The notes under the pieces are model-generated. The model did not search any database, was not told the origin of the DNA, and saw only the letters and a program-made list of their open reading frames with translations. A program made the translations under genes and the position numbers. DNA of 64,000 nucleotides, from assembly GCF_011397635.1 (NCBI RefSeq), contig NC_064759.1, positions 17,012,428-17,076,427 on the forward strand. Direction: 5' to 3'. Positions 14,293 through 62,703 of this stretch are shown here, in pieces; position 1 is the first letter of the stretch; each line of letters starts with the position of its first letter. The stretch is from Epinephelus fuscoguttatus (taxonomy: Eukaryota > Chordata > Actinopteri > Perciformes > Serranidae).

Positions 14293-16263
14293 GTTCTAGT
14301 GTATGGTAGGCATTAGTTTAATGTACAGTTGAGGCTGATGGGAACGCCAGTAGTTTGGTCAAAAAGCAGAGTACTGAGCAAATTCACTAAAAACGCAAAT
14401 GTCAACCTCATGATGGCACTATAGGAAAAATCAGGGTGTTATCAAGTCAGTAGGATTCCTCCTCTGGGGACCATCAGTGTCTTTACAAAAATTCATAGCA
14501 ATCAGTAAAACAGTATTTGAGATATTTCAGTCTGAACTGACGACTAATGTTGCTGAATTGCAGAGTGATTATTGTAACAATTGGGTCCAATATATTGTAG
14601 CTTATATACAAGTTTATAAACCAGAGTTGTATTTACATATTTGTTTTACCCTTCACTGCCATTTTGGGCTCCCATTACAGGAAGCAGGAGAACTCTTTTT
14701 TTCCAGTGTTAATGCTGGGTGAGCAGCTTGGACAGGATTGTATGGCTGCCAATGTTTGGATTACTCATCCATTGTTTATTAAATCCAAAGGTTTTGTTAG
14801 TTAAAACTGGATGCATGACATGAGTGACAATCATAGAGGAACATCACCTACAGAAAACTGTCATAATTGGCTGGAAAGATTCAGGTACAGTGAGATTTAA
14901 GAGAGCAGGAATTGAGGGCCTGGAGAAGTCACAGGTTTTTGGTTTTAACCAGTGGAACCAGAGCTGAGGAGCACTGACGGCATAAGGACGCCCAAGTACT
15001 GAGAGACGCCTTGTTGGTCTTAACTTTTTTATGTGATTTACTGATAACAAAAAATTAAAGAATAGCATCTGCATTCTTTTTTGAGATGAAGTAGGCGGTC
15101 AAATTCTGGCTATATTGGGCAAAATCCCATTTTAATCTTTGAGCATATCATGATTTAGGTGGACTGAGAGAACACTGGACCTTTGCACCTACTCTTCTCT
15201 ATTTTTAGGCTTTAGAAAATCTAGACTTCAGCCAATCACAGGTCATTTCAAAAAAGAGGGTGTTCCTACTGGCTGTTGTACAATTGTCGATGGCATTGTG
15301 CACGTCCCTTTGGTGAAATCCTGATTTAATGGTCATGATCCTGCAGACACAGTTGCTATTTCAGCACTGGCAACAACTACCTACACTGCACAGCAATCCA
15401 AAAAAAGAAAACGGCTTTATCAAAAAGTGTATAAAATAGCGTCCGACAATAAATGAAATAAAACGCATCATTAGCGGTGAAGTGTTTCAGAGATAGAAGT
15501 GAAAACATTAACAGTTTAGCTTCAATTCCACGTTTATGGAGCTGATGTTCGCTAGAGCCTTGAATTACAGTATGTCCTCCACCTCACTGCCCACTGCTAC
15601 GGACAACTTTATTGGGAGGGGAGCTGGCAACAACTCTGGAGACGGACTCCTAGTCAGTGACCGCAGCAACCTGAATCCTCCAGCTTGGGGATAGGTTAGA
15701 CCCGGCAATGGTCACCAGCCCAATTTGACAGGTGGCAGTAGGGGGCTTGAACTGCTACAGCTGCCGACCTGTGGTCAAAATCAATGTATGGGAAACACTG
15801 GGTTACCGTAAGAAGCGTGTGCATATGCCTGTGGTCGCCTGGTGGGAGGGGCTTTGGATAAAGAGTGTCAGTTTTTGCCCTTTTTGTTTGTTTGTTTTGC
15901 CGCTTCCAGATTTCTGCCTACCCCAGCTTTAAGGAGCAACTGATTTATCAGAATCAGAAATATTTTATTGATCCCCATGGGGAAGTTGTGATTCTTTAAA
16001 GCTGCTCCGATGAGGGGAAAAAAAAAAAAAAAGGGGAAAAAAGAGAGAATAAGAGTATGAAATAGAAGTTTGGAAATATACAGCAATGAAATAAAATTGA
16101 AATGAAAATCTTTGTTGTGCTGAGGCTCTAAGTGTGCAATTTAACTTCTTTAGGTCAGGATGTGTTGACAGTTTTACTTCAGCCAAAATGATGCTAAATG
16201 CAACAAACAACAACTTTAAGAGTCTTTTTTCCCCTCTTCAAGGAAAAGACAAAACTTAATTTT
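14293..16263. other. Intergenic, no gene seen
   Basis: No exon with family similarity or coherent splicing was found. The region ends just beyond the relic ITIM exon of PVRL-A. A poly(A) run lies at about 16,018-16,032. Confidence 0.5.
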
Positions 16264-16363
16264 TCAGTCTCTCTTATTTAAGTTGCCAACCATCACTTCG
16301 AAGTGTGTGACATCCTCATTGGTGCAGACTGTGTGTTTGTCACTGGATGAGTGGACCAAGATC
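16264..16363 (-). pseudogene. Decayed ITIM exon of PVRL-A (both ITIM tyrosines lost)
   Basis: This segment is collinear with the last coding exon of PVRL-B (28,745-28,870) and lies at the matching place downstream of PVRL-A exon 5. The acceptor ACACACAG is kept and the sequence starts GATCTTGGTCCACTC, where PVRL-B has GATGTGGTCTACTC. The first ITIM tyrosine codon TAC therefore reads CAC, with a one-base frame change. About 40 bases between the two motifs are deleted. The second motif, VTYSEV in PVRL-B, reads VTHFEV here (TAC to CAC). Read from exon 5, it would hit TGA after seven codons. Translation already stops in exon 5, so this exon is non-coding. Confidence 0.75.
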
Positions 16364-16521
16364 CTGTGTGTCAGAAAGTGTTTGGAGGATAGGAAATTAG
16401 GGCTCTCGTATTCAGGGTGATTTGTTTTAACAGACGTTTTTTTGTCATAGCAACAAAATAATTAAACAATCAACTACAATTTAAAGACGGAGCCTCAAAC
16501 CAGCTCCAAGCTCACCTCGTT

Positions 16522-16550
16522 TCATTCACACACCACTGCACCACCTTCAT
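16522..16550 (-). CDS. PVRL-A exon 5: truncated tail with stop
   Basis: Begins after acceptor CTGTCTTTCAG and reads DEGGAVVCE then TGA at 16,522-16,524. The old donor GTGAGC is still present six bases further on, which shows this was once an internal exon. Confidence 0.7.
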
Positions 16551-19500
16551 CTGAAAGACAGAGAAGCTCAGCGGAACTGAAACACACACCAGGCCATGCA
16601 AGTTAATGTGGTGCTTTTTAGAAAAAGAGAGAAGAGAAACTTACCATAACAGACACGGTGTTCGACCAAAACCTCACGTCTAGGTAAAGAAAACAGGTAT
16701 TAGTTGTTTTGCACTTGACCGCCTGGTGTCAGAAGTGAATTTTCTTCTAATAAAGGAAGGATAAAGATTTAGTAACTGATCAAAACTAGTTTGAGTTTGC
16801 TTTTCAGCAGCTCACACTGTATACCCCCACATAAAATACACACCTTATTCTGATGATGATGAAGTAAGTTGTTACTAGCATGGTCGATACTATCAGCACA
16901 AACACCCCAGCAGCAATCATTCTTGGTAATATCGTCTTCCCTCCTGAGGGAAAAAAAACCTCCTATGATCAACTCCAAACCATGTGAGTCTTTCATCAGT
17001 GATGTTGTGTTAAACCGTTCAGATCCCCTGTTTATTCCAATGGATGTGACTTTTCTAGGATGTCTAGATCTACGATTACTATCACCTGATTCCACCCAAA
17101 TGCACAGACGTATTCGATAGGATGTCTATAAACCAATCACATTGTTTTACATAATTTAAAGTGGACTGCATCATAGCCACGCCCCTTATTTAACAAGCAT
17201 GGCCGACCATGAGGCAAGGAGGGCGCACAAGGCAGGTTTCAGTCTATCTTACGAAAACTCTGTTTGTGTGTCTGTTCCACGTTTTTCTCCTCACTGACTT
17301 GGTCAATCCATGTGAAATTTGGCACAGTGGTAGAGGGTCATGGGAGGATGCGAATGAAGCAATATTACATCAATTGGCCAAAGGGGGGCGCTATAGCAAC
17401 CGATTGAAACTGTAAACTTTGAATGGGCATATCTCATGCCCCGTATGTCGTAGAGACATGAAACTTTGCACAGAGATGCCTCTCCTCACGAGGAACAAAT
17501 TTGCCTCAAGAACCCATAACTTCCGGTTATATAGATTTTCCGCCGTTTTGTATTTTTTGAAAAACACTTAAAATCAATCTCTTCCTAGGAAGTTTGACCG
17601 ATGTGCATGAAACTCAGTGAACATAATCTAGGGACCAATATCTAAAGTTCCCTCTTGGCAAAAGTTGGAAAACTTACTAAAACTGAGCTTCTATAAGGCA
17701 ATGAATATTGTGGAGGGCGTGGCTCATCACATAAAGGTGTATAACATCTCAAGGGTTTCACCCATCACCACGCAACTTTGTAGGCATATGACCACACATA
17801 ATCTGAGGGGACCCCTCCATTATTGACCCCATCAAACAAAATGGGGGCGCTAGAGAGCTAATTTCTTATCTAGGCCTAACTGCCATATTGATTTTTACTA
17901 AACTTGGTAGATATGTAGAGCAGGACGCTTCAAGGTGACTGGAGAAATTTAACTCTAAGGGGCAACTGGGTGGCGCTATAACAACAGAAAAATGCTTAAA
18001 AATGGCTAAAATGCGACCGATCACTGTGGCTCCCCCTGTGGCCCAATGTTGGGTTTTTTATCTAATTTTTGGTGTGACCAAGAAAATGAACAGGGAAACA
18101 CTGCTCTGTTTGATTTTCTAATGATACAGTCAGTTTATAAAGCATTTCATTGATGAACTACACAGAGTATTCATCTTGGGAGGTTTTTAACATACTGTTT
18201 CCTGGAGATAGTATTCGGTTGGCGGCTATATAGGACTTGCCACCATAGTCATCAGAATGCCAATCTGCGATGCCACAATATCCAGATGTCTTCTACATAT
18301 ATGTACCACATTTGGTGCTTTTATCACAAACTGAACGATTGTCTTGATTTCGTGAGCTACGTCACCCCGCTGCTTTGAGATAAATCAAACTTAAGTTTTG
18401 GGAGGCCCCTGCCTACCTATAGACTTGTGCCTGCCTTTGCCCCATCTGTGTTTGCCTCTTCTGACTGCCTGTTAACTTAAACCCTGCTTTGATTATTGAT
18501 CACATAAACTGCATTTTTGCCCGTTCTGCTTACGAGTTCAGCTTCTGAGTCCAAACCTTATATGTGAGAGCAGTTACAGATATGACTTCAAATATTTGAT
18601 GCTCACCTTGAACTACAAGGTTGGTGGTTCCTTCAAATGAACCACTGGGAAAAGTTGCAATGCTGCAGGTGTACGACCCTGCATCTGTCATCTGTACATC
18701 TCTAACGATCAAAGATTGTTCTTCAAGCTCCACTCTGTCCTTCAGAAATGTATTGTAAACACTAACTCCAAAATTAACATTGAAAACAATAAGGACGATG
18801 TTCTCTCCTTCTGGTGGCTTGAGCTCCCACTGAACCTGAGTAATATCAGCGTGTTGTGCTCCCTGGATGAATGTGCATGGCAGGGTGACATCATGCCCCA
18901 GGTATCCCGTCACTGTGGACGAGACTTTGACTTCTTGTGCCTCAAGAACTGCTAGAAAAAAGGTGAAATTGTGGCATGAGATTTGTGATTCATCAGTCAA
19001 ACCGTAGACTTTATTGTTATTTGCAATTTCACCTTATTTTAGATGTAAATGTCCTACTGTAGTTTCCAACATATTTGCTGCAGATACCTTGTGTTAGCTT
19101 CACAACACAGTCTTAAACATTTTGAGGGGCCTGCCTGCTCTGCTCAGCTCTGCTCTTGTTTTGCTCAATGTTCTTCTTCCTCTTCTTCCTACCATGAAAT
19201 GTCGCAAATATGTCAAACTTCCTCAACTGAAATTTGGGGTTGGATGATAGTGCTGCAGTGACCATCTAAAGTTAAAAAGTTTTCAAAATTCATAACAAAT
19301 CAGCTGTACGCGTTACGACTTTGCAGCTTTCACTGAAATGTAGCCCCAGCTGAGCAGAAGTTTTCACACACTTGGACCTGGTAGGAATTAGGAAGTCCAG
19401 CACTCTGTTTTTACATAAAAAAGTGTTAGCTAATTACACCTAAGTGCACCCACATGTTTCACTCAATCAACACCAAATTCACCGCACAGCATCTTCAAAC

Positions 19501-21241
19501 TATCCTCCAAAAACAATCCTTATTATTGAAATATAAAAAATGAGCCCAGACTGCATGAGAATGTTTCAGTGTAAACATACTGTAAACAGCTGCTGCAGAT
19601 TTTTGCTAAATAAATCTCCAATGGGGGCGTCGGTGGCTTAGCGGTAGAGCAGACGCCCCATGTACAAGGCTGTTGCCACAGCGGCCCGGGTTCGACTCCA
19701 GCCTGTGGCCCTTTGCTGCATGTCACTCCCTCTCTCTCTCTCTCCCCCTTTCACGCTTGTCTGTCCTATCAAATAAAGGCTAAAAATGCCCCCAAAATTA
19801 TCTTTAAAAAAAAAAAAAAATTCCAATGTTCATGAATAATACAACAACAGATTCATGTCACGGTAGAAGCAGTGTTGAATTTTAAATTCTTACAAAGTGA
19901 AGTTATGACGTTTTGAATTTTGTCCTCAACTTAACAATAGCAGTCAATGGAAAAAAAGAGCATCAGTTTGTCACTTATGGAGCAATCAGTCTTTGTTAAA
20001 ATAAATAAGACATCTTCATGTTGTTTAGATGAAGTACATACATTTTCAGAATTTTGTCTTTAACTTTTTTTTTTTTTTTTTTTTTTTGTTACACAAGTTT
20101 GAAATGTCCCTTTACATGCAACTCTGGTGGTAGCTCAACAACATCATGACTAACCATGAGAGTCTAAGGTTGTGGGTTCATTCGAGGTCTGGGTGATGCA
20201 GAATAAACATGCTGATACCTACGCAGGTCTTTCTCACAGCGGACATTTTGACTTGTCATAGCAGGACAATTCTAGTTGTTATAAATAACACCAATGATGG
20301 CTCTGTTCTGTTCCAGAGAGTGACAGACAATCAATGATGGATAAATTCCATTTAGCTGCTTTATTTCAGTATCCTTGATTCTATTATTTAGACCTGTGCT
20401 GTTCCTGTGTGACATGTCAAAATGCCTTCCCTGAAAAAAGGCCTATTGTGCTGTGTGGATTAGAGACACATGATTTCTAAGTTATTTTAACTTAAGAAGT
20501 TGAAAATAGTTTAGATCTGGGTATTTCTCATATTTCTGTCTCCTCTTCCTTTTTTCATCGTCTTTCTCTTCCTTCTTCTGCTGCTGCTTCTTCTGCTGCT
20601 GCTTCTTCTGCTTCTGCTTCTGCTTCTTCCTCCTCCTCAAAATGTGGGCCCTGTCTCACCGCTGTACGGCAGCTATAGTTTAGTCATTGTTTTTAATAAG
20701 CTGTTGTCCCCCACAGGCTAACACTCCCCTGTGCGCACACAAGGAAATCTGAAGTACATTTATTCAAGTACTGTACTTAAATACAAGTTTGCAGTACTTG
20801 TACTTTACTTGAGTACTTTTTATTTATGTAAATGTACTTTATACTTTTACATCATTGTGTTTTACTTCATGTTATTCGACATTTAACAGCGTGTCAGTTG
20901 AATTTTAGATACAGAACATGAACAACTTGCAAAATATGATGCATTGTTATAAATTAAACAGCCTAACTATGTGTGCAGCTAATATACAGTTCATCTCAAA
21001 CAGCAAAAATATTAGAACATTAATATGCACCTTAATGCACTAGCAACAATCCAGTGATATAACACAATGAAAGGGGCCACACCACTTCCTGATGAGTACT
21101 TTCCAAGTGCTGCTGTAAGTATATTTTGCTGCCAACACTTTTACCTAAGTATTTAAAACCTGTTGTCTTACCTGGGATTGTGACGTGAATGAACCATAGA
21201 AGGAGAAGGGGTGATCTGCTGCAAGTTTTCATCGTCCTCAT
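16522..21241 (-). CDS. PVRL-A: PVR/nectin-like single V-domain receptor with truncated tail (5 coding exons)
   Basis: Coding exons on the minus strand: 21,172-21,241, 18,607-18,948, 16,844-16,943, 16,645-16,679 and 16,522-16,550, in phases 1, 1, 2, 1. They total 576 nt, or 191 residues plus stop. Order: signal peptide; one V-set domain (residues about 24-137) with LPC and YTC cysteines, VQWEL tryptophan and the ATFPSGS motif typical of PVR, TIGIT and CD226; almost no stalk; membrane helix (about 146-168, no charged residue inside); and a basic RIRRE turn. The tail is only about 23 residues, ends in an in-frame TGA in exon 5 and has no tyrosine motif. A second Met at codon 4 aligns with the PVRL-B start and may be the real one. 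The copy may be an expressed ITIM-less sibling or an early pseudogene. Confidence 0.75.
16645..16679 (-). CDS. PVRL-A exon 4: juxtamembrane tail
   Basis: 35 nt, phase 2 to 1, encoding RREVLVEHRVCY. It has the same length and phases as PVRL-B exon 4. Confidence 0.7.
16844..16943 (-). CDS. PVRL-A exon 3: transmembrane segment
   Basis: 100 nt, phase 1 to 2, after acceptor TTTTTTCCCTCAG. It encodes a short GGKTILPR linker and the helix MIAAGVFVLIVSTMLV with a hydrophobic extension, then RIR. It has no Lys, Arg, Asp or Glu within the helix, so adaptor pairing through a charged residue is not evident. Confidence 0.75.
17268..17724. repeat. Dispersed repeat R1, + copy
   Basis: Starts near TTCCACGTTTTTCTCC and runs to GTGGAGGGCGTGGCT. 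It is nearly identical, in opposite orientation, to 47,264-47,715. Related sequence may continue to about 18,050. It lies in the PVRL-A intron between the V and transmembrane exons. Confidence 0.7.
18607..18948 (-). CDS. PVRL-A exon 2: Ig V-set domain
   Basis: A 342-nt phase 1-1 exon after acceptor TTTTTTCTAGCAG, closed by donor GTGAGC. It encodes GYLGHDVTLPC, ITQVQWEL, a C'-C'' region with NVNFGVSV, and DAGSYTCSIATFPSGS. It is 106/114 residues identical to the PVRL-B exon. All eight changes lie in the second half. The NTS sequon of PVRL-B is NTF here, so the predicted glycosylation site is missing. Confidence 0.9.
19626..19816 (+). mobile_element. tRNA-derived SINE
   Basis: A tRNA-like head has an A-box-like TGGCTTAGCGGTAGAGC and a B-box-like GGTTCGACTCC. 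A CT-rich body, CAAATAAAGGC and a terminal poly(A) at about 19,806-19,819 follow. The poly(A) tail and body show it is a SINE, not a functional tRNA gene. It lies in PVRL-A intron 1. Confidence 0.8.
20559..20638. repeat. (CTT/CTG)n-rich simple repeat
   Basis: Imperfect trinucleotide array of CTT, CTG and CTC units. Confidence 0.8.
21172..21241 (-). CDS. PVRL-A exon 1: signal peptide
   Basis: Reads MRTMKTCSRSPLLLLWF and onward, a hydrophobic leader ending in phase 1 before donor GTAAGA. The MKTCSRSPL part aligns with MKPCSKSPL of PVRL-B. Confidence 0.75.
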
Positions 21242-22679
21242 TGACACGTTCTCAGTTTTCTTGTCTTCTAAAAATAGTCATCATGATTTCCTGTAGTTCA
21301 TTTCTCTCTGTCGTCTTCATTAATCTTCAGAAGCACAGTGACCTCATGTGGCCAGATGATGATGTGCAGAGAAAAGGTAATGGATAATACCAGACAAGTT
21401 GTACATATGCGTCTAAAATAAGGTGAAATTACTATATGATGTTAAGTTTGAGAATGGACACTCAAGCTCACTGGTGCAGACCAGTCAGTCAGACCACCAT
21501 GTCTAAGTTAAACCAGCCCTGCAACTCTGTTTACAAACAATGTTTTATTCCCTGAACATGTTCAGCTATCTTGTCTTCATCAGGGTGGTGTTTCCTTAAC
21601 GCTCAATTATAGATGGGGGTTCATTTCCTTAAGCTTTTCTAGAAAGTCTCCTGTGGAAATGCATGTCTTACAAGGTAAAACCAAAAACCAGGACCCTACA
21701 GTATAAGCTCAGGACTAAAGTAAAGAGTGGGTAACAGTTTTTCACATCTTGGGTGTGACTTGTAATATTAATCAACTTCAGCAATATGCTCTTACTGTGG
21801 GTGACAACAGTAATACTTCTACTGCCACTTCTGTTTTAAATGCTTAATGATACCGATTTAATACTGACCAACTAATCCCCTTTTTTCAAAACACTCACAG
21901 CTACTGCACTGTAGACAATATCTGTCAAAGTTTTTATTTTAGGAGCACAATATTCACAAACATGAAGTTATCATCATCAAAGAGACTTAAGGTTATCTCT
22001 AAAAATGCTCTCACTAGGTGCTAAAATTAAATAAACCTCCACAAAGCTTCCTAATACATAGAGTTGCTCCTAGTGATTAAATTCTTAAAATTATGATATT
22101 TTCTTAGAATTTCTCCTTAAAGTTAAGACTAGGTCCTTGTAAAGATAAAAATCAATCACAGGGCATCTTGGACCTTAAAAGCGCTCCTAAGGTGAAAAAC
22201 TGTTAGGAGCAGGGAGGAGGACTTTTCAGATGTTTAAGAGTTTCTTGATCAGAGGAGAAAGAGGTCAGAGAAATATTCTCCAAATGTTGGATGTCATTGA
22301 GTAAATGAAATTGAGCAGATTAGATTGTGCAGCAGTGATGACTTGAGTCTGTCTCAACCTTCCATCAGCAGAGTGATCACACTAACAATGACAGCACTTT
22401 CACAGTCAGCAGTTTCATTTCCACTGGTTGTCCACACCTTACAGACTCATAAAAGGGTGTGTCTGTGACAACCAGTCACATCTGTTAACAGACTGCATTA
22501 TACCGAGCAACTAAGGTTAAAGTTTCTGTTCCTTGCTTGCTCAGAGTTGCTCTGAGAACTTTCCTGAACCACTTCTAAGCTTGGACTCCTTACTACAAGT
22601 GTTTAGGCTGAGTTAGGAGCTCTCTGAGAGTGTTCTCAGAATATTTGTGAATACGGCCTTGGGTCAGAAGGTTGGTTCA

Positions 22680-23689: not shown

Positions 23690-24320
23690 GTTGCACAACT
23701 TTCTGCACAAACCATCAGACACCATATCAGGGAAGCTCATCTACACGCTTGGTCTCATCACCAGGGCCTTGACCTGACTGCTTATCATCGATGGCGTCTG
23801 GCACTTTAGAGAAGTGTTGTCTTTACAGATGGATCCTGGTTTACACTGTATCGGGCAGTATGGCGTCGCGAGTATGGACGAGCGGTTTGCTAATGCCAAC
23901 ATTGTGAATAGGGTGCGCCATGGTGGAGGTGGGTTTATGGTATGGGCTGGCAAAAGCTACAGACAATGAACGTAGGTGCGTTTCATTGATGGCAGCATGA
24001 CTACACAGAGATGCAGTGACGAGATCCTGAGACCTTTTGTCATACCATTCATCTGCGGCCATGACGTCCTGTTGCAACATGATGAAGCAAGGCCCCGACC
24101 TGTATCGATCTTTACACAATTTCTGGAAGCTGAAAACATCCCAGTTCTTGTGCGGCCTGCATATTCACCAGACCTGTGACCCTCTGAGCATGTGGCATTT
24201 CCTGCCACGATCCAGGGACCTCACACAGCCATTGAGGAGGAGTGGGCCAAAATTCTACAGATCACAATCAACAACCTCATCATCCACTTTGTCCTCAGAG
24301 TTACATTTGTTAACACAATA
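23690..24320 (+). pseudogene. Tc1/mariner transposase relic
   Basis: Reading across frames recovers conserved Tc1-type transposase blocks: GGGFMVWAG-like sequence, an RFIDGSM block, QHDEARP, and IPVLVRPAYSPDL followed by an in-frame stop and PSEHVW. The last blocks match the QHDNARPH and SPDLNPIEHVW region containing the second D and the third catalytic residue. Several stops and shifts make it non-functional. It lies between the two PVR-like genes. Confidence 0.75.
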
Positions 24321-25537
24321 GCACATGACTAATGTTCTCTCATTCTCAGTTGTGCTACAGTGAGACGTATCTGCAGTTTTTCTTCTCATGTCTGAGTAAT
24401 AACAGACTGCTATGGAAAGACTTTCATAATGCACGCTCTTCAAACAGCACTTGTCTTATCTCTCTCATCTACTTCCTGCCATGACAGAACTCTACAGTAC
24501 GTGAAAAAAAATCCCAGGGAAACCACGTCTGTGATTATGTCTGTGAAAATATAGAACTTTATTTAACAGTTTCCACTGACAAACAGTCTTGTTCACAAAT
24601 GTGGGGACAATTGACAGAACTGTGCTCCGTCAGCTGTCTGCCAGCTCGTCTGCATGATTTAACAGGAATTAAACATCTCAAATGCATTACACTGATTGTA
24701 ATCACAACTCCAAGCACTGATTTTAAATATAAACTTAATGGAACAACACAGGAAATTAAATTAGCCCTAAAGTTAATATCTTAACACAGCAACAACAACA
24801 AATAAACATTTTATTCTGGCGACACAAAGTGAGCGTATAGCAGACATAATCTCACACCCACAAAGTGACACAGTCAGGAAACGCAGCTGAAAGGCAGAAA
24901 CTAACAGAGAGTGAGTGTTGGGGATGTTCAGTGATGGTGTGCATCATCATGGCATCTCTGCAAACCATATTTTATCACCTTTTTACACATGCACGATCAG
25001 ACTGCAACATCTAGGAACAGGATCTTGAGATTCAAACCCTCAGCAGACACAGTACTGGGTGTGGTGAAATACTACTACAACTGCTATCTGTATCAGTGCT
25101 AACAGAATACGTAGAGTGCTCTATTATAGTATGCATTTATTGCTGTTACAGTTAGCAAAAAGGCTCAGAACAGAACAAGTGAGAATTTGAAAGAGTGGCC
25201 TTCCTCTCTGACTCATAAACCCTTAAACACTGAAAAAAGGCTCACATGCAAACGCTTGGTTAAGGCACGAGGTACACATCACTTCTCTTAACGTCATGAT
25301 GTCCAATTTAGCTGAATGACAAAAAATTGAAGTCTAGAGAGAATTTTACTGCAGAGATTGCGCAAGTTTGGTGTCACTTTTCAACACGCTGACCTCTTGC
25401 CGTCATTAACACACTCTGTTGCATTGCTGAGCTGGTTCCCTGTCCATTGTGTTATTTTCAATTTTTGTCTTCCTGTTTTTGTCTTCCTCCTTTGATGGTC
25501 AACAAAGGAGGAATAGGAACTTTATATTATGTGATGG

Positions 25538-28060: not shown

Positions 28061-28744
28061 AAAACAAGGTTATTAATGGCACTTTTATTTATGAACTTTT
28101 GATCCGTGGAGGTTTTCCCTTTGTAAATCTTTCCTAAGCTGAGAAAAGCGAGTTAAAAATCTGTGACGTCATCACAGTGTAAAGTCTTTGAGCTGATCAG
28201 GAACTTGCGGCTAGGTCCAGTGGGAGAAACACTACTGCACATATATCCTTAGGTAATCCTGTATGGCTAGTAACTTTTTTGGCGTATGTGCCAGGCGAGC
28301 AGTCCCATTGGACTGACTAGGTGCCATCGTGGGGTCATCTAGTTGTTGTTACATATCTATGGCTAAACACCAGCATCGTAGCATCGTCACTTTAAGCATG
28401 TTTGCGTGTTAACATGAGCATTTAGCTGAAGAACAGCCTTACAGAGCCACTGGGCTGGTTGCAGACTCTATATATTGAATTATTAAATTTCCTTTTATAC
28501 TGTATTTTATCAGCTGCTGTGAGGCTGTAATGGAAACATGGGCCCATAGAGAAAACCCTTTATGAGAGTAGGATAGACGGCCTGGAGGAGCCACAGAGGT
28601 TAGGTTTTATTTTAGAAGCAGCTGATGTGCTGATTTCACTAAATGATACCAAAATGATGGTAAATGAAACTTTCATACAGCAGCTGAAAAGTGCAAGTTG
28701 TACAAGGAAGAAAACGTCATCATGATTTTAGCTTACATTTCATC

Positions 28745-28870
28745 TCATTTATGCTCCTGGCGCAAAACTACAACCTCAGAGTACGTGACATCATCCGCTG
28801 TGTGTTTTTCACTGGGTGGAGGTTTAGCTTCTCTGGATGATTTGAGCTTGACGTCAGAGTAGACCACATC
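28745..28870 (-). CDS. PVRL-B exon 6: tail with two ITIMs and stop
   Basis: 126 nt beginning at GAT after acceptor CACTCATAG, in phase 0. It encodes DVVYSDVKLKSS, a proline-containing spacer, DDVTYSEVVVLRQEHK and TGA at 28,745-28,747. Both motifs fit the consensus V-x-Y-x-x-V and are 26 residues apart. Confidence 0.85.
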   Translation of the reverse strand, partial: DVVYSDVKLKSSREAKPPPSEKHTADDVTYSEVVVLRQEHK

Positions 28871-31800
28871 CTATGAGTGATGGAGAGACAGAGTTAAGAT
28901 GGAGAGTTAACTGCTCAGTGCTTTAGTGAAACAAGAGCACAATTAGACTGAAACTTCCTGCAGCTTAAATTCCGAGATGTGGCTTCAGACCAGCTCACCT
29001 CGTCTCGTCGAAGAACAGATGGCCTGGCCACATCCATCGTTGGATTTGTATCTGAAAGACAGACACGCTTCAGACACGGGAACTGAAACAAATCGGTTGC
29101 TGTGTAGAAATAGAGTGAAGAGTGCTTGTGTTCTCACCGATGTAGACGCGGTGTCTGACAGTAGGATCACGTCTGAGTGAAGGAATCAAAAGTTCTGTGA
29201 TCAGATTTTCTGCATGTGATTGAGCTGATTTGACTTCTGTTCTACAGGAATTTTTCTAATCCTATAAACCTTTCTGTATAAACTTATATATCCCTTCTTA
29301 AATTAAAAAACAGCTGACACAAACCAAAAAAGGCACAGCTTTTTGTTTTAAATGAACTAAATATAAAATGAACTTAATTAAAACTTGATTTATTACCGAT
29401 AAATATTCAAAGAAGATACTGAAGATATGTTTAGGGACGACAGAGGAGATACCCGCACACCAACGCAACTGAGCTGGACAGCACAAAAAAGGTTTACACA
29501 AAAAGAAGGATGCTCAGAGTACAAAACATATTTTTGAGAAGTGAATAAAAACAGCAACAAATGTTTCTGTCTTTGACTTTCGTCAGTTCCCTCAAGGACT
29601 AAAATGTTTGCTGCTGTTTCTATTCACTTTTTATTATTATTTTTTGCACTTTGAGCACTCTTCTTTTTGTTCATGAATGTCTTAAATAAATTGACCTTTT
29701 TTTTGCCTTGATCTCAGCTTGTGAACCTTATGTATGTCTGTCCAGCCCGGTTTCATTGGTGTGCAGGTGTCCATGTACCGACGCACCCAAGATAAACTTT
29801 TTGTTGTTCTAAGTAGGTGCAGTTTCACAGCAGCCCGAAGATATGCTTAACAAATTAATAGACTTGCACCGATTACAATTTTTTGGGCCGATAACGATTT
29901 CCAATTTGCAGAGTGTTTGGATGGCCGATTCCAATTTAATGTTTTTCAAACCACTTTACAGCACACAAGATATTGCAATATTTTCTATCTTTGCTTTATT
30001 AGAACATTTTAACCAAGATACAACCAGCTTTTCAATAATTATCTCAAACAAACAAACAAAAACACGTTTGACACGTTTCTTAACCTGTTAAGAAACATTT
30101 TCCTTTTTGCTCAAATATAACTTCAGGTACAGTACTAAAATAAATAGGCTAAGTAAAAAAGGCATACATAGGCTAAATAAAAAACATAGATAAATAAAAT
30201 AATAATTCTTGGTGTATAGCATTGGCAAAGGACAAATCCCCCTCAGTGTTTAGCACATGTGCATTTGTCCCTCAAAATGAAAACATGAAAGTATCAGACA
30301 AAATCAAGACATTTACACCATAAATTGAGGCAGAAAATACACAAATTGGTGCATATAAATTCACCAGAATGCATAAAATTGAAAGTGTTTGATGACCTCC
30401 AAGCCTCCTGTTTCATATGTGTCCCTCCCACTGTTTAAACCAAACCTACTGTACGCCCTTGCAGCTCAGTAAAGGCAGTAAATCCCGAGAATGACTAAAA
30501 CATGCAGTACATCCCAGAAATTCAAAGAAATAGCAAAAAATGTATCATGCAAAGAGAGCATAATGCCTGTCTGACAATAAATAGAAAAGTGCACACTGTA
30601 TACACATGCAGGGTTCATCATGGCCATGCATGCATAAAACTCTGCATTGTGCAGTTTGTTGTTTTTTTTCCCTGTAATTACACTTAGCTGTATATGTAAA
30701 TATCAAAGACCAAATAGATAAGAAGTCACACATTTACAGTAATACCATTACATAATGATCAGTGGAAACAAAGTATATAGTTATCGTTAGAAATATGTGG
30801 TAAGTGTGTGGGTTTCATTTCCACATTGTGAGGGACCATATGAAACGCAGGGTTTAGGGGTTGTCCACCAGAGAAGTTTGAGCATCAAACACTTGATTTC
30901 CTGCATCAAGCTGAATTTTATACACCAGTGTGCGCATTTTCTGCATCAATTTACTGTATAATGTAAATGTCCTTAATTTTGTCAAAATAAAAGTCCTGTG
31001 CTACTTTAATGATTAATGTTTTTATTGGAGGGACAAATGCACATGTTCTAAATATTGAGGGGGACATGTCCCCCGCTTACCCCCCAAAATCTACACCTGT
31101 GGATAATGACATATCTGTGACAGCTGACGAAATAAGCAGGGCTCAACAATAAGTTTGTCCCATTGTCAAGGGCAGGTAAAATGCCACGTCAGCTATGTCA
31201 GTTGCTAATCTAATAACTCACCTCTCTGATTGAGTAAGTGTTAAAAAATAATTACACATTGTTTTTTCAAGAGTTGATGATGGAAATGGCTAGAGTGAGG
31301 GTTCAGAGTTGCACATGTGCAGTACTGATTAGGCACTCATGAGAAAATGGCAGCAGGTCAAGACAAAGTTTATGAGCTGAAGTACAAGCGAGCATTTTAA
31401 TTATCCTGGAAACACTCTCAGTTTAGTTGTGGTTTAGTTGGGTGGGGGTAGATTAAACATGACAGTTGACTTTAGTATTTGTTGTTATTTGATAACCACT
31501 AATAATTAAAAGGCAAGTAAAATTTGATTTTGGGCAAGTTGATTTCTGACCCACTTGCTCAACTAGGAAAAAAACCCCATTAATGTTGAACCCTGGAGGG
31601 CGTCTTTGTCAGGGGAAGAGGTTTCCTTTCTACATTTAATACACATCAAACACACACACCTTTTGATGAAGCGGAGGTAAAGTGCGGCTGCCACGACGAC
31701 TAACAGCAACAGGACAGCAATCACAATACCAGAAACCGCCCCTGATGATAACTGCATCTGTTCTGGGAGAAGAAACGTGACTGTGATTATTTATCATTAA

Positions 31801-33476
31801 TAACTGCTGTATAAATGTTGAGTGACGTACAAGGTCCACAGCAGCTGTATCAAATGATCCGTCTTATGTTCTAAGAGAATCCAAGCCATGTTTTCCCCAC
31901 TGATGAGTAGGGCTGGGTGATCTGTCCTGAAAATTATATTGTGATATTTTTAGGCTGTATCTCGATACATGATATATATCTCGTTTTTTTTTTTTTTAAA
32001 TCTCCTCAAAGATTTAATTTAATTTAATGCCAGGACTGGGAGACATAATCGAACACAATGTTTCTGAACAGATACGCTCTCTGATGCAGAACGTTGAAGG
32101 GATGACTGTTGTTTTTTTGTTGTTCTTTTTTCCTCAGAAAATATTAACACAATGAGATTGTTGATGAATAATCATAAATAATGGATTAATGTGAATTTAT
32201 AATGTTGATCTGTCCTATTACACGTCTGTCCGTCCTGGAAGAGGGATCCCTCCTCCTTTGCTCTTCCTGAGGTTTCTACCTCTTTTTTTTAATGTTTTTT
32301 TGGGGAGTTTTTCCTTCTCAGCAGTCAGGGTCCAAGGGCAGAGGGATGTTGTGTGCTGTAAACCCCTCCGAGGCAAATTGTGATTCACGATATCAGGCAT
32401 TATGAATAAAACTTAATATAATTAATCCGGACATGACGACTAAGTGGATTGAGGCAAGCATTAAAATAAATAAACAGTCTGGTAGGTTGATAAATTTCCA
32501 AAATTTTACTCTAATTAAATGAGGGGAAAAAACACCATTTATGCCACATCACGGTACAACGATGTCCAAAATCTAAGACGACACATTGTCTTGTATCTTG
32601 ATACTGATATAGCATCTCCATATTGCCCAGCCCCACTGACAAGCAATGTACAGTCAGGTTAAAATAATCTACTGTCAAAGCTGAAATAAAATATTAGGTT
32701 CAAGTTATTAGTTTGGGATCATGCTGATTTTGAAGATTATTTATCATTTGCGTCAACATGCTTTTCATACTCACCTTGAACAACAAGGTTGGTGGTTCCT
32801 TCAAATGAACCACTGGGGAAAGTTGCAATGCTGCAGGTGTACGGCCCAGCATCACTCATTTCTACATCTCTGATGATCAAAGATTGTTCTTTAAGCTCCA
32901 CTCTGCCCTTCAGAGACGTATTGTGAACACTGACTCCAAAGTTAACATTGAAAACAATAAGGACGATGTTCTCTCCTTCTGGTGGCTTGAGCTCCCACTG
33001 AACCTGAGTAATATCAGCGTGTTGTGCTCCCTGGATGAATGTGCATGGCAGGGTGACATCATGCCCCAGGTATCCCGTCACTGTGGATGAGACTTTGACT
33101 TCTTGTGCCTCAAGAACTGCTAGAAAAAAGATGACATGTTGTTGATCTCTGGCAGTACTCTTTCTGTCCTCACATTTAATTGACCCTTTTGCAATCACAC
33201 ATCATGGCCTCAACAGCATTTAACAAACAAACTTATCTTCTCAGATCTCTGAGCACTGAGAAGCTGGGCGCCATTTATAGATCGTAGGCTGCAGAACGTG
33301 TTTTACTGGGTTAATGGGGAAGTTTCACAGCTGAGTCTCTCAATCAACATTTTCTTATTTCTATATACTCTACTACATCAGCCTTTCAAAAGTAGAAAAC
33401 ATTTTGTCTTACCTGGGAGTAATGTGATGTAAATCAGCTCCAGCAGTATGAGAGGTGACTTGCTGCAAGGTTTCAT
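28745..33476 (-). CDS. PVRL-B: PVR/nectin-like single V-domain inhibitory receptor with two ITIMs (6 coding exons)
   Basis: Coding exons on the minus strand: 33,413-33,476, 32,775-33,116, 31,660-31,762, 29,138-29,172, 28,999-29,051 and 28,745-28,870. All have GT-AG borders, phases run 1, 1, 2, 1, 0, and the total is 723 nt, or 240 residues. Layout: signal peptide (1-21); V-set domain (22-135) with C46, W62, C116 and the ATFPSGS motif of PVR, TIGIT and CD226; a very short stalk; transmembrane helix (about 144-165) followed by RFIKRR; and a tail of about 70 residues with ITIMs VVYSDV (Y203) and VTYSEV (Y229). In known receptors such motifs recruit SHP-1/SHP-2 and dampen immune-cell activation. 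A sequon lies at N87. The family call is by motif; I cannot say which mammalian member it matches best. Confidence 0.85.
28999..29051 (-). CDS. PVRL-B exon 5: cytoplasmic linker
   Basis: 53 nt, phase 1 to 0, encoding DTNPTMDVARPSVLRRDE. It is open throughout, unlike the PVRL-A counterpart, which stops. Confidence 0.8.
29138..29172 (-). CDS. PVRL-B exon 4: juxtamembrane tail
   Basis: 35 nt, encoding RRDPTVRHRVYI. It is paralogous to PVRL-A exon 4 in length, phase and sequence. The intron between exons 3 and 4 is about 2.5 kb here against 164 bp in PVRL-A, expanded by repeats. Confidence 0.8.
31660..31762 (-). CDS. PVRL-B exon 3: transmembrane segment
   Basis: 103 nt, phase 1 to 2, after acceptor TTTCTTCTCCCAG. 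It encodes EQMQLSSG, the helix AVSGIVIAVLLLLVVVAAAL, then YLRFIKR. There is no charged residue within the helix. Confidence 0.85.
31908..32637. mobile_element. hAT-like element (GGGCTGGG termini) in PVRL-B intron
   Basis: Starts TAGGGCTGGGTGAT and ends ATTGCCCAGCCCCA, which are inverted repeats. Flanks CTGATGAG and CTGACAAG match at 6 of 8 positions and may be an old target duplication. Inside, about 32,220-32,400 carries a segment (GGGGAGTTTTTCCTTCTC, then GGGCAGAGGGATG) that recurs near 41,690-41,790. Confidence 0.55.
32775..33116 (-). CDS. PVRL-B exon 2: Ig V-set domain
   Basis: 342 nt, phase 1-1. It has the same motifs as the PVRL-A V exon. The half that encodes strands A to C' is almost identical to PVRL-A at DNA level, and the half that encodes C'' to G differs at about 17 sites. 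It carries sequon NTS. Confidence 0.9.
33413..33476 (-). CDS. PVRL-B exon 1: signal peptide
   Basis: Reads MKPCSKSPLILLELIYITLL and onward, ending CCCAG before GTAAGA in phase 1. Thirteen bases upstream of the ATG lies GCCTGCAG, a plausible acceptor, so one or more 5' UTR exons may lie further upstream. Confidence 0.8.
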
Positions 33477-34105: not shown

Positions 34106-34225
34106 GCAATAAAAACACAACAACTCCACAGGCCGGTGGTTTCTCTTGTGACTGCAATCAGCAGGCAGCTTGATTTCCGACTGCTTATTTATTCCCCTTG
34201 TTGTCGGTCTGTGAAGCATCCACCA

Positions 34226-34262
34226 GTAGAACAGCGACCTCGTGTGGTCAGATGACGACAAT
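34226..34262. promoter_or_regulatory. Sequence block shared upstream of both PVR-like genes
   Basis: The block here (AACAGCGACCTCGTGTGGTC, then AGATGACGA) resembles 21,333-21,362 upstream of PVRL-A (CACAGTGACCTCATGTGGCC, then AGATGATGA). It may mark the ancestral promoter-proximal region, or may be a small dispersed repeat. Confidence 0.3.
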
Positions 34263-40380: not shown

Positions 40381-40454
40381 TCACAGTAACCCTCTCAGAG
40401 TCAGCGCACTGATCAGCAGCAGTGAAAACGACCAGCCGGGAGCAGTGCAGGATG
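40381..40454 (-). CDS. CEACAM-like GPI-signal exon with stop
   Basis: 74 nt. It reads [20 protein letters not shown], then a short RGLL end and TGA at 40,381-40,383. Small residues before a hydrophobic C-terminus and the absence of any tail point to GPI anchoring. Confidence 0.7.
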
Positions 40455-43400
40455 CTTCATGACAACAACAAACAACAGTTATCACCCCTTGAAAATTGGC
40501 ATCTGGGATTAACATGTAAGTAACTCTGACGCAAAGTGCAACCTCACCTCTCAGATTCAGAACTGTGGAGTTTTCCAGCATGGTCACCATGTTTCTGGCA
40601 GTGCAGGTGTAATTGCCAATGCTCTCTGTCCCCAGCCTCTCTATGACAAACATGGAGGTGTTAACATGTGTCTCATTGCTGTTGAACGTCCAGCTGAAGT
40701 TTGCTGGAGGGACAGAGTCCGCTGTGCACTGCAGGGTGACTCTGCGGCCGGGTGCTGCTGCTGATGGTCCAATAATTGATATGTTATGTGGTCCAACTGA
40801 AAGAAAAGAAGTACAGGAAGTATTCAGATCCTTTGCTTAAGTCCACATACACCACACATAGGAATACCACACTGTGAATGCATCCCATCACAAGTAAATT
40901 CATCAGGAAAATGTACTTAAAGTATTAAAAGTGAAAGAAAAATGTCCCCTGTGACCATTATATTATTATATATTATATCATAAGAATAATTACTCATGCA
41001 GTAATGTAAAAGCAGGATTATAATGTTATTTTAAGGCAACTTATAATCATTTTCATTATTGATTAATCTGCTGATTAGTTTCTCGATTTATCCATTTTTA
41101 GTTCATATTAAAATTTATAAAATCATAAAAAATGCTCATCACATCACTCAAAGCTAAAAGCAACACATTCACATGCTTTTTTTTTATTCAATCATTAGTA
41201 CACAATTTAAAACTATTACAGATAAATTAGAAATATTAAAATAATTTCAAGGAAAAGCAACATATACGCTGTAATCTTAAAATGTTTGGCTTTCTTGCAT
41301 TAAAAATAACTACAGAATTATCAAAATAATTGCCAAATTTTCTGTCACTCAGTTGTTCCAGCTACACTCCTCATATGTTTTGTATGGAAACATCGTTACT
41401 GATAAAGTAACTGGTTACTAAAGCTGTCAGATAAATGCAGTGAATTAAAAGTACAGAATTTCCCTCTCACTTGAAGTGTTTTCAGAATAAATATTAAAGT
41501 AGAAGTACCTCAAATTTGTACTTAAAAGCAGCTACTAGGAGTTTTAAGTCGGTTATGAGAAAGTGTCAATTTAATACTAATACCTTTATATGACCTACTG
41601 TATGTGAGCAATCAAGAGAGTAACAATGAGAACAGTATCTGTTTCTATAAAGTTGTTCTTAATGCCTTTTTCCCCCATCTAAAGGGTTTTTTGGGGAGTT
41701 TTTCTTTATCTGTTGTGAGGGTTCAAGGGCAGAGGGATGAAATTGTGATGTGTGATATTGCGCTTTATGAATAAAATTGACTTGAATTGAACTGAATGTC
41801 TGCCCCTGAGTCAGATTCCCTAGCAAGTCAGTCAAGACAATGAAGCTCATTGAAACACTACCACTTTTGTCCACAGGAGGCCGCCAAAATCAACACAAAA
41901 TAATTTCCAAGTTGCTTTAAAGCTCCAGTTGGTCTCTTTTATGAAAATGACTTTATGTCGTAATTGCTGAAACTGTCACTATATTCTGAAAGACATACAT
42001 AAAGCAGTCTGTGGAATACATCATGTCCCTCCTCTTCTTCCTAACGCATCTAATGGCTTTTGCTTGAATCTACTGCAGAGCTGTCAGTCATGGTTCATGA
42101 CCTGCACTCAAACTGGCAGCATGTCCAAAACATGGCTGGATCACAAACATTCTCATTTTACAGCTAAACAGTACACTAAAATATGTTTCTGAAAACATCC
42201 CGATGCAATAACATAGTCTTGATTCATATTTGATCAGTGCTTTCTAGTTTAACAGTTTGACAGCAATTCTTGAGCAGTGACTGACCGCTGCGTTAGACTC
42301 CTCAGTTCTGATTGGTTGTTTTCATCTGTCTTATTTAGTCTTTATATGTATATCTATATATACATCAGTGCAGTGCTTAGCTCCTATCTGTACTTACTTA
42401 AATGTACGTAGTTACATTCCACCACTGACTATGCTGCATTAGAGCTGTAAACTTCAGACCTGTCCCTAAAAAACTACAATAACTGATAAGAATTAAGAGC
42501 TAATACCCAAATATTTCAACAAATACACTCAGTTTTCATCTTGACATGAGTCTTTATTGTCTATTTCTTTCTAGAAATAGTCACTGGGAGCCGACTGTAC
42601 AGTGAGCAGTACTCACAGTTGACAGTGAGATCGTGGGTCGCGGTCATGGTGCTGACTGGGTTGCTGAGTCGACACTGGTAGGTGCCGTGGTTGGAGCTGT
42701 GAACAGGCTGCATGAAGACCGTCCTGTTGTCCATGGAGAAGCTGACTCTGTCATTCGGATAAAGCGGACGGCCATCCTTCGTCCACACTCTGGTGCTGAT
42801 GGAGCCGGAGGCCTCGCAGCTCAGGTTGGTGGAGCTTCTGTCTTCTATCAAGATGGCTGCAGGGCTGCGGATGGTGGCTCCGGTTATTAGTGCTGGCACA
42901 ACATAAAGAGAGTCAGTACAAAGAAATTGGTTAAAAAAGTTAGTTATTTTATTTAATTATTCACAAATAATTCACCCATTCAAGCTATTTCAAGGTTGTA
43001 AGTCTAACAGATGGGGGAAAAATTGTGTTGTTTATTTTCAGTTGTATTATAATATTCGTCTTATAGCAACTTTACAGTTCTAAAATTTCAAACTATTCTA
43101 TTTAATATTTTACCAAATATTTCTTTTTCTCAAACTTGTAATTTTCAAACATGTCTTAAAGATCCAGTGTGTAGGATTTACAGGAATATATCGGCAGAAA
43201 TTAATTATAATATAATAAGTGTCTTTTTTAGTGTGTAATTGGCCGAAATTAAGAATTTTTGTGTTTTAGTTAACTTAAAATGACCTGTTTATATCTACAG
43301 TAGCCCTGAAAGGACAAACAACAAATACTATGCAAGTATTTTGCGTCCGCCGCTGTAGTTAGCAGCCCCTCTGCAACAAGCAGCACTGCAAAACTGCTTT

Positions 43401-44720
43401 ATTCAATATTTTTACACAGTTAAAGTCCAGTTTTTTTCTGTAAAACCTCCTCCACATCTGGATCTCAAGTTATCAGAGGAAAAGGGTGAACACACATTAG
43501 CAGGTGCTGGGCTAGCAACCCATCTACAATGAGCCAAACAGCGTAGGAGAAACACTGATTTGTAACATGGAACTGCTTCATTCAGTGTTTTTACTGGTTT
43601 TAATAAACTGGTCTGTCTGTTTTGGAGGAGAGGAGACCTCTGCGGATAATTAAACTCCTGTTAAAAAAACCTTCTGAACAATAAACAAAAATATAATCAG
43701 GAGGAGTTTCAGCAGGTTCCAATCTGCAATCCTCACTGCTAGATTCCACTAAATCCTACACACTGCTCATTTTAGAGTGGTGACACTGCATTGTGTCAGT
43801 GAACATGACAAATAAAACCTATGACTCCTTGAATCCTAGCAGGAACTTTTGTGCATATTCCCCAGCGATATCAAACTATGAACTCAAAAACTGCTCAGTT
43901 TTAAATAAAAGACATGTAATGCAATGTCATGTTGAAAGAAAATTAATTAAAGAAAATTAATGCAGGATTACTGCATTGGATTGAATTATATTAATATAGT
44001 ATCCACCACAGAGACATCCACATAACAGATCTGAAGATATAAATTGAAATTAAGATTTCTGTACTAAAACACTGAACATCTATTAATCTTTTTATAAAAA
44101 AAAAAAAATCAGAGACAGCCCTTATTTTTAGAGGGATCGTCACCCTTTTCAAATGACATTAAGATATTTTCTTCTCAGTTATTGAAAAACCACTGCAACA
44201 TTAAACCCACCATACACATCCAGTCTGGTCCTCCCCTGTTTCTGCAGCCCTCCGTCTGGTATGATGGTGACGGTGTACTCCCCGCTGTCCTCGGGCAGCA
44301 GGTTCCTGAGCTCCAGGGACCCCGTGGCTCGGTCCAGTGTGATCCTGTTGGCATGCCCGGGCTCGATGATATCAGTGCTGGTGGAGGTGATGATGTTCAC
44401 CCCTTTGAAGCTCCAGCTGACTGAGAGGAATGGACTCGCAGGAGGTCTGAGGGTGGTGGTGAACTTCACTGTGCCTGCCACAGCTCCGCTCAGGGGTCCT
44501 GGAGGTAAGATACCCTCACCTGCACACATAGCTATTTATACAAAATAGAAAATTAAGAGCAGCTCTGTCATATCTTTGACCTTAATGGTGAGAAACATAA
44601 TACATTTTGGTGGTAATACAGCAAACTAAATTCATGATGTAGCAGATTTCCCATCAACACATCATCTGGATTTAATCTACCTGATAAAACAAGCACCAAA
44701 CAAGCAGCCGTCCCGAGCAT
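40381..44720 (-). CDS. CEACAM-like GPI-anchored glycoprotein (5 coding exons, complete)
   Basis: Coding exons on the minus strand: 44,681-44,720, 44,211-44,519, 42,617-42,892, 40,548-40,796 and 40,381-40,454. All introns are phase 1; the total is 948 nt, or 315 residues plus TGA. The protein has a short leader ([14 protein letters not shown]), then a CEACAM-type N domain (about 14-116) with the fish signature [15 protein letters not shown] and [16 protein letters not shown] and no cysteine. Two C2-type Ig domains with cysteine pairs and several N-x-S/T sites follow. The C-terminus is small residues and then a hydrophobic stretch ([12 protein letters not shown]) ending in TGA with no cytoplasmic tail, which fits a GPI-attachment signal. 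In mammals such CEACAMs act in adhesion at the outer cell surface; the function here is inferred. Confidence 0.8.
40548..40796 (-). CDS. CEACAM-like B-type Ig exon
   Basis: 249 nt, phase 1-1. It starts [11 protein letters not shown] and has [18 protein letters not shown] and [10 protein letters not shown]. It has several N-linked sequons. The acceptor is CTTTTCTTTCAG. Confidence 0.85.
40803..42428. mobile_element. Repeat of the GTGGAAGAAGTA...TTCCACCACTG family in intron
   Basis: The left side has GAAGTATTCAGATCCTTTGC and the right side ends ACATTCCACCACTG. Related copies are at 53,938-55,247 and around 7,915-9,610. A SINE-like tail (GGGGAGTTTTTCTTTATC) lies inside near 41,690-41,790. Confidence 0.45.
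42617..42892 (-). CDS. CEACAM-like A-type Ig exon
   Basis: 276 nt, phase 1-1. It encodes a C2-set domain with [18 protein letters not shown] and [13 protein letters not shown]. The acceptor is GTTGTGCCAG and the donor GTGAGT. Confidence 0.85.
43156..43774. mobile_element. Family-2 TTAA MITE-like element, near-complete
   Basis: Begins TTAAAGATCCAGTGTGTAGG and ends AAATCCTACACACTGCTC followed by ATTTTA. The ends are inverted repeats about 620 bp apart, in the intron between the N and A exons. Confidence 0.6.
44211..44519 (-). CDS. CEACAM-like N-domain exon
   Basis: 309 nt, phase 1-1, with acceptor TATGTGTGCAG and donor GTGGGT. It encodes a V-like fold with [25 protein letters not shown] and [11 protein letters not shown]. 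The two canonical Ig cysteine positions are occupied by other residues (KFTTTL and YTVTII), as in CEACAM N domains. Confidence 0.85.
44681..44720 (-). CDS. CEACAM-like GPI gene, leader exon
   Basis: The ATG at 44,718-44,720 starts a hydrophobic leader that ends in phase 1 before GTAGAT. An acceptor-like TTTTTTTATTTCAG about 30 bp upstream suggests a separate 5' UTR exon; a donor-like CCGTAG/GTAGCT near 44,930 could be its end. The leader is shorter than usual. Confidence 0.6.
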
Positions 44721-56100: not shown

Positions 56101-56374
56101 GTCCCATTTCAGAATGATATATTTAAAGGTTATTCTTTAGGGCTTTTGCCTTTATTCTAGGACACGATGCACGCTTTAGTAGTTGAGCAAGATGTCGCCT
56201 CCAGAATGATATAGTTTATATACAGTAACTGGATCATAATCATCATTGATAAATTAATGTCTTCATCACTTCAATATTGCATCTGGTAAAGGAGGAGCTC
56301 AATTTAACCAAGCTTGTGAATGTACCCCTGGGGATCAAAAAGGTCTTATCTTCATAAATTACCATTCATTTGTT

Positions 56375-56425
<51 letters not shown>

Positions 56426-62443: not shown

Positions 62444-62703
62444 CTGTGGGAGAAAATATTTTGATTAAGTTTAAGTTTTATTTTTAAGTTTATTTACTTA
62501 AAGATTTACTATAAGATTATTTGTTGGTACAAATTTCATGAAAACTGTCCTAACCCTAAAGATGCATGATGAACTGTCTCATTCTTAGGTTATCAAATTC
62601 AGACGCTTTGCGAAAATGGTTCAGTCCAACTACCAACCCAAAGTTAAACACAGCACCTTCGAAGGTATATTAGACATTGACAAGTATCTACAAAAAGTGC
62701 CAG

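Follow-up and report, generated by a model that had tools for sequence, protein, structure and literature searches.

A tandem pair of nectin-like single-V receptors in a fish genome: a predicted two-ITIM receptor and its short-tailed sibling, possibly a decoy

The window analysed here, a 64-kb stretch of DNA (contig C8, 17012428-17076427), carries on its minus strand two related receptor genes, PVRL-A and PVRL-B (hereafter A and B), arranged in tandem and in the same orientation. Judging by its exons, B is built like an inhibitory receptor and carries two ITIMs, while A is built like a sibling that lacks them. An in-frame stop ends the tail of A, a relic of the ITIM exon lies beyond it, and the V exons of the two genes display a pattern of gene conversion. 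Our preferred reading, to which we give about an even chance, is that A is an old short-tailed membrane sibling sharing the ligand face of B, and probably a decoy. The features of both genes are as follows.

21172..21232, minus strand: leader exon of A, starting MKTCSRSPLLLLWFIHVTIP; homologous to the B leader (49/67 aligned bases identical, z 14.3 against 500 shuffles)
18607..18951, minus strand: V-set exon of A, nectin/PVR-like, lying in a block of 375 bp that shares 94.1% identity with B, whose copy matches Pfam V-set and PDB nectin-1
18774..18949, minus strand: codons 1-58 of the V exon of A, which look recently converted; dS 0.024, unbroken identity to B from 18,919 to 18,774
16844..16943, minus strand: transmembrane (TM) exon of A, with an Arg at the outer membrane border (ILPRMIAAGVFVLIVSTMLVTTYFIII); from hydropathy and from homology to the B TM exon with 40-nt flanks
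16645..16679, minus strand: exon 4 of A, 35 nt, juxtamembrane; 21/35 identical to B exon 4, with the same length and phase
16516..16550, minus strand: exon 5 of A, 35 nt (53 nt in B), containing the stop; from alignment to B and in-frame translation
16522..16524, minus strand: in-frame TGA of A, 6 nt before the exon-5 donor, in the frame read from the leader
16264..16363, minus strand: exon 6 of A, the ITIM-exon relic; acceptor AG retained, frame broken, second Tyr codon CAC; score 41 against 19.1±3.2 in shuffles
33413..33476, minus strand: leader exon of B, from the exon model, ending at GT
32775..33119, minus strand: V-set exon of B; Pfam V-set and PDB nectin matches
31660..31762, minus strand: TM exon of B, outer border without charged residue
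29138..29172, minus strand: exon 4 of B, 35 nt, from alignment to A
28999..29051, minus strand: exon 5 of B, 53 nt, from alignment to A
28745..28870, minus strand: exon 6 of B, with two ITIMs (VVYSDV, VTYSEV) and the stop

Translated, these exon chains predict a 189-aa protein from A and a 241-aa protein from B. In both genes, AG and GT flank the internal exons and the leader ends at GT; the relic retains its AG. An earlier, sequence-only reading of this DNA had described A as retaining its leader, V, membrane and juxtamembrane exons, with a stop in exon 5 at 16,522-16,524. Indeed, these exons and the stretch of exon 5 up to the stop keep an open frame, in phase, between consensus splice dinucleotides; damage is confined to exons 5 and 6, and translation from the leader runs into the TGA. 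Upstream of both leaders, a 35-bp match (83%; 21,328-21,362 in A and 34,224-34,258 in B) is perhaps a common 5' exon or a piece of promoter.

The tails of A and B are homologous. Local alignment of A 16,114-16,720 with B 28,595-29,215 scored 131, against 28.9±3.6 (maximum 45) in 300 dinucleotide shuffles. Block by block, this single alignment gives identities of 21/35 in exon 4, 60/74 in intron 4, 25/34 in exon 5, 94/134 in intron 5, 60/89 in exon 6 and 77/106 in the 3' flank. Exon 5 is too short and too altered to be recognised by itself (score 12 against 11.8±2.2, reached by 292/500 shuffles), so its homology is argued from its position between aligned introns. The relic taken alone scored above every shuffle (0/500 reached its score), which supports its earlier identification as a remnant of the ITIM exon and goes against the possibility that 16,264-16,363 is not homologous to B exon 6.

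ITIMs recruit SH2 phosphatases, and B should do so through its two motifs. At the second ITIM, B reads GTC ACG TAC TCT GAG GTT and A reads GTC ACA CAC TTC GAA GTG, with CAC in all alignments compared. The change of both ITIM tyrosines from TAC to CAC, as previously proposed, is therefore secure for the second; for the first it depends on the alignment, A having either CAC or no motif at all. MAFFT and the local aligner pair the first ITIM of B with A sequence upstream of the relic acceptor, in which case the motif would have been lost outright, and forcing its TAC opposite CAC scored 0, whereas the unforced alignment reached 8 (with 40 and 20 nt of intron included). The further proposal of about 40 bp lost between the motifs, with a frameshift, is tied to that same pairing; the CAC codons lie 48 nt apart and the TAC codons of B 78 nt, a net difference of about 30 nt.

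No cytoplasmic ITIM was found in any of eight models of A (no skip, or skipping of exon 4; exon 5; TM; exons 4 and 5; TM and exon 4; TM and exon 5; V). The model that skips exon 5, an event which would have counted against the earlier reading if it restored another tail, is predicted to encode 203 aa with a tail that is different but has no ITIM. A scan of the 64-kb window for the two-ITIM exon pattern returned four matches, one of them B's own exon and none in A. Together with the tail homology and the stop, the eight models bear out the view of A as a sibling without ITIMs of a receptor that carries them. The B ITIM-exon peptide, searched against the whole genome (1.05 Gb in 26 contigs), matched itself alone (1 candidate) and yielded no tail outgroup; the pattern scan over nine 9.9-kb stretches around V paralogues, and four beside two of these, gave some two-ITIM matches, none assignable to a gene. 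In this one species, loss in A, as opposed to gain in B, is suggested by the broken frame of the relic.

The V domain of the B copy is a V-set domain (Pfam, E 4e-17). Among the best 60 of 80 PDB matches, nectin-1 came first (E 3e-14), followed by nectin-4, nectin-2, PVR and nectin-3, and CD226 and TIGIT matched weakly (E 6e-5 and 1.5e-4), among other Ig proteins. Searching the genome returned 21 V-domain matches including A and B, the other 19 at 28-43% identity; the most alike, at C8 16.478 Mb (40%) and C17 12.467 Mb (43%), look by eye like nectin genes. By eye, the list of open reading frames holds no Ig-like frame of at least 80 aa between the V and TM exons of A or B. Their sequences thus place A and B with the nectins by V domain but not by full build, since nectins have three Ig domains (V and two C-type) and A and B a single V. 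An AlphaFold model of the V domain, for which the alignment consisted of A and B only, reached pLDDT 46.3 and pTM 0.36 and was set aside.

The window also holds other Ig-domain open frames. On the minus strand, open frames at 55,504-62,477 and 40,381-44,535 resemble CEACAM genes: the Ig domain at 61.7-62.0 kb has carcinoembryonic antigen as its best PDB match, the V-like domain at 44.2-44.5 kb gave no match in a PDB search, and the frame at 40.4 kb shows, by eye, a hydrophobic end like a GPI signal. A Pfam scan of the open frame at 1.4-2.1 kb gave no match. This neighbourhood recalls human 19q13, where nectin-like receptors lie beside CEACAMs. Elsewhere, at C24 15.03-15.99 Mb, several genes with a V domain and a membrane segment form a cluster; we take them to be CD200/OX-2-like. 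Two mobile-element traces were seen by eye, namely a tRNA-like SINE in the first intron of A (19,628-19,800) and, between A and B, a fragment resembling a Tc1/mariner transposase (23,700-24,330).

The two V domains are 93% identical in protein (106/114 residues). The eight amino-acid differences all fall within codons 65-92, and the stretches TQVQW, NVNFG and TFPSG, which presumably correspond to motifs of the PVR/nectin/TIGIT group, are unchanged. At the DNA level, the 94.1% identity spans the V exon plus 18 nt of the preceding and 12 nt of the following intron. In the introns adjoining the V exon, blastn found no further A/B match, and the 300 nt at the start and at the end of the A V-TM intron stand at shuffle level against the B V-to-exon-4 stretch (score reached by 108/200 and 34/200 shuffles). 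Moreover, the 22 differences in these 375 bp are unevenly placed: a run of 146 bp has none (p 0.0003 under random placement), and 15 of the 18 in-exon differences fall inside 98 bp (p 5e-5). The dS between A and B is 0.024 in codons 1-58, 0.345 in codons 59-94 and 0.154 in codons 95-114, and the non-coding K is 0.33 (introns 4 and 5 and the 3' flank, 231/314 identical). Because the dS of codons 59-94 is close to the non-coding K, these codons seem to reflect how old the pair is, and codons 1-58, with their very low dS, to result from recent copying. As read from the sequence, this mosaic is that of gene conversion confined to the V exon. Since conversion has homogenised the V exon, A and B likely bind the same ligand. 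Conversion does not prove a function for A, because a nonfunctional allele can take part in it, as is described for SIGLEC16P (PMC5701461).

The pair had also been described as caught in the course of losing inhibition, a view that the divergence of the relic does not favour. Exon 6 of A is 67% identical to B and the introns are 70-81% identical; with the relic about as diverged from B as the introns, the ITIM exon has probably been unconstrained for a large part of the history of the pair, and its loss in A is probably not fresh. The TM exon (58/94) and exon 4 (21/35) of A are likewise no better conserved in DNA than the introns. Faster-than-neutral change of these two exons is not claimed, as it depends on the alignment (TM 58/94 or 37/96). 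We also considered whether the TM exon of A had been swapped in from elsewhere, given a protein-guided identity of 37/96. Compared by itself with everything from V to exon 4 in the other gene, the TM exon has its score reached by 46/200 and 9/200 shuffles. The A TM peptide, however, has no genomic match other than itself (1 candidate), and the TM exons of A and B taken with 40-nt flanks score 52 against 21.2±3.0 (300 shuffles); on these grounds the swap was rejected. In the A V-TM intron, 17,010-17,141 is a dispersed repeat with at least 39 other copies at 81-89% identity (40 of 202 candidates scored).

Of the two fates earlier proposed for A, decoy or pseudogene, the anatomy fits the former. 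That A is instead a recently dead pseudogene, its V exon looking fresh through conversion from B, we give rather less than an even chance. Exon 6 is broken, as expected of such a gene, and recent conversion of codons 1-58 would hide decay there. Against this stand the intact leader, TM exon, exon 4 and splice sites, and a stop so placed that a stable short-tailed protein would result. Indeed, only 6 nt separate the stop from the exon-5 donor and, by the 50-nt rule for nonsense-mediated decay, a transcript of A should escape that decay. How long the exons would survive without constraint was gauged by simulated drift that started from the B exons other than V and applied the rates observed for substitutions and gaps (26 gaps, of which 15% were multiples of three). 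The exons stayed intact in 5e-6 of runs (1/200,000) when A was unconstrained for its whole branch, in 0.0036 for half and in 0.10 for the last fifth. These figures, rough because equal branches are assumed, B serves as the start and the gaps come from an optimised alignment, suggest that A was kept intact through much of its history, and say nothing on whether it is alive now. They disfavour the pseudogene, though about one run in ten would leave the exons intact had A died within the last fifth of the branch. Codons 59-94 show a dN/dS of about 0.31 from few changes (8.5 and 6.5), a value that constraint in B alone could partly explain and that to this extent weakens the case for a short-tailed decoy.

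The preferred reading of A as a decoy may be put together as follows. A and B would be an old tandem pair of single-V nectin-like receptors, in which A lost its ITIM exon long ago, so that its tail now ends at the exon-5 stop and what is left of the lost exon is decaying, probably within the 3' untranslated region. The ligand face would be kept equal in the two by conversion limited to the V exon. If expressed, A would show the binding domain of B without the inhibitory signal, competing for the ligand or for a pathogen that exploits B. Sharing the binding face of B and anchored in the membrane, yet lacking an ITIM, A would most simply act through such competition without inhibition.

The V-exon mosaic and an Arg at the outer membrane border of A (ILPRMIAAGVFVLIV) are additions to the earlier description, and the latter opens a third fate, that of an activating partner. 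Here the border Arg would bind FcR-gamma or another adaptor, and the short tail would need no motif of its own; we think this unlikely. FcR-gamma-linked receptors such as FCAR and LILRA have an Arg at the start of the membrane segment, a layout that ILPRMIAAGVFVLIV resembles, the border of B has no charged residue, and the genome holds four matches above cut-off to the CD3-zeta/FcR-gamma membrane family. However, the best hydrophobic segments of A of 19, 21 and 23 residues all leave the Arg outside by hydropathy, so it may lie outside the membrane. Moreover, the next cytoplasmic Arg follows at a distance of 23 residues, a wider spacing than is usual in FcR-gamma partners, and a single residue is weak evidence. 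A has no cytoplasmic tyrosine motif, and its only Arg in relation to the membrane segment is this one at the border. The fuller version, a fish nectin-type pair whose ITIM sibling became activating through tail loss and a border Arg for an ITAM adaptor, the ligand face being locked by conversion, we regard as equally doubtful. If it were true, it would represent a separate origin, from nectins, of the role that TIGIT and CD226 play in mammals.

Very improbable, finally, is that the main product of A is an alternative splice form, either a V domain secreted because TM is skipped or a TM joined to the relic with both His-for-Tyr places in one frame. Without TM, the frame does stay open across exons 4 and 5 into the relic (191 aa), and without exons 4 and 5 the product is 201 aa long and ends ..ILVHSSSDKHTVCTNEDVTHFEVMVGNLNKRD, but B is also open on TM skipping (199 aa), so the frame of A may be chance, and neither form has a cytoplasmic tyrosine motif.

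With respect to paired receptors, A and B have near-identical binding domains, with ITIMs in B and none in A. Among the papers listed, no description of a fish nectin-type ITIM pair was found in titles and the openings of abstracts. The pattern itself is already known in other immune receptors, of which A and B would be a fresh case, adding the nectin-like V family to the CEACAMs and Siglecs, in which exon-restricted conversion is known to link an inhibitory receptor with a sibling lacking the tail. Because the V exon holds both a fresh and an old tract, conversion and tail loss could be dated separately in related fish, where one could also ask whether selection keeps a decoy without a signal.

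Within the PVR/nectin/TIGIT/CD226 group, whose V-domain sequences are like those of A and B, TIGIT consists of one V and an ITIM. PVR also has an ITIM, and is reported only in placental mammals (PMC7286890). By V domain, A and B are nearest to nectins, not to CEACAMs or Siglecs; the closest precedents for their arrangement are nevertheless found in the latter two families. In Xenopus CEACAM pairs (ceacam301/303 and others), conversion is described as limited to the binding-domain exon including its splice signals, with poorly conserved adjoining introns (PMC5112662), and an ITIM member stands beside a sibling of another signalling type, much as in A and B. The activating partners there carry ITAM or ITAM-like motifs, whereas A has no cytoplasmic tyrosine motif; furthermore, the authors hold opposite gene orientation to be necessary for such conversion (PMC5112662), whereas A and B share one orientation and have a nectin-like V. 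Mammalian CEACAM pairs are treated in PMC2832619. The single-IgV CEACAM1-like genes of turtles, described in a preprint (PMC13278318), are like A in combining one V with a membrane segment, in having ITIM exons predicted to be lost and unexpressed, and in a V close to that of the inhibitory gene, and are considered possible decoys. They differ in that their TM exon is read through, whereas A has an in-frame stop in exon 5 and an exon-6 relic, and in the family of the V domain. SIGLEC11 and SIGLEC16 are neighbours with a V-set exon homogenised by conversion and one inhibitory member, as are A and B; Siglec-16, however, is described as activating, and the human conversion spans about 2 kb including sequence upstream of the gene, compared with one exon in A and B (PMC5701461). 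By analogy with the CEACAM and Siglec-11/16 pairs, A and B may well work as these do.
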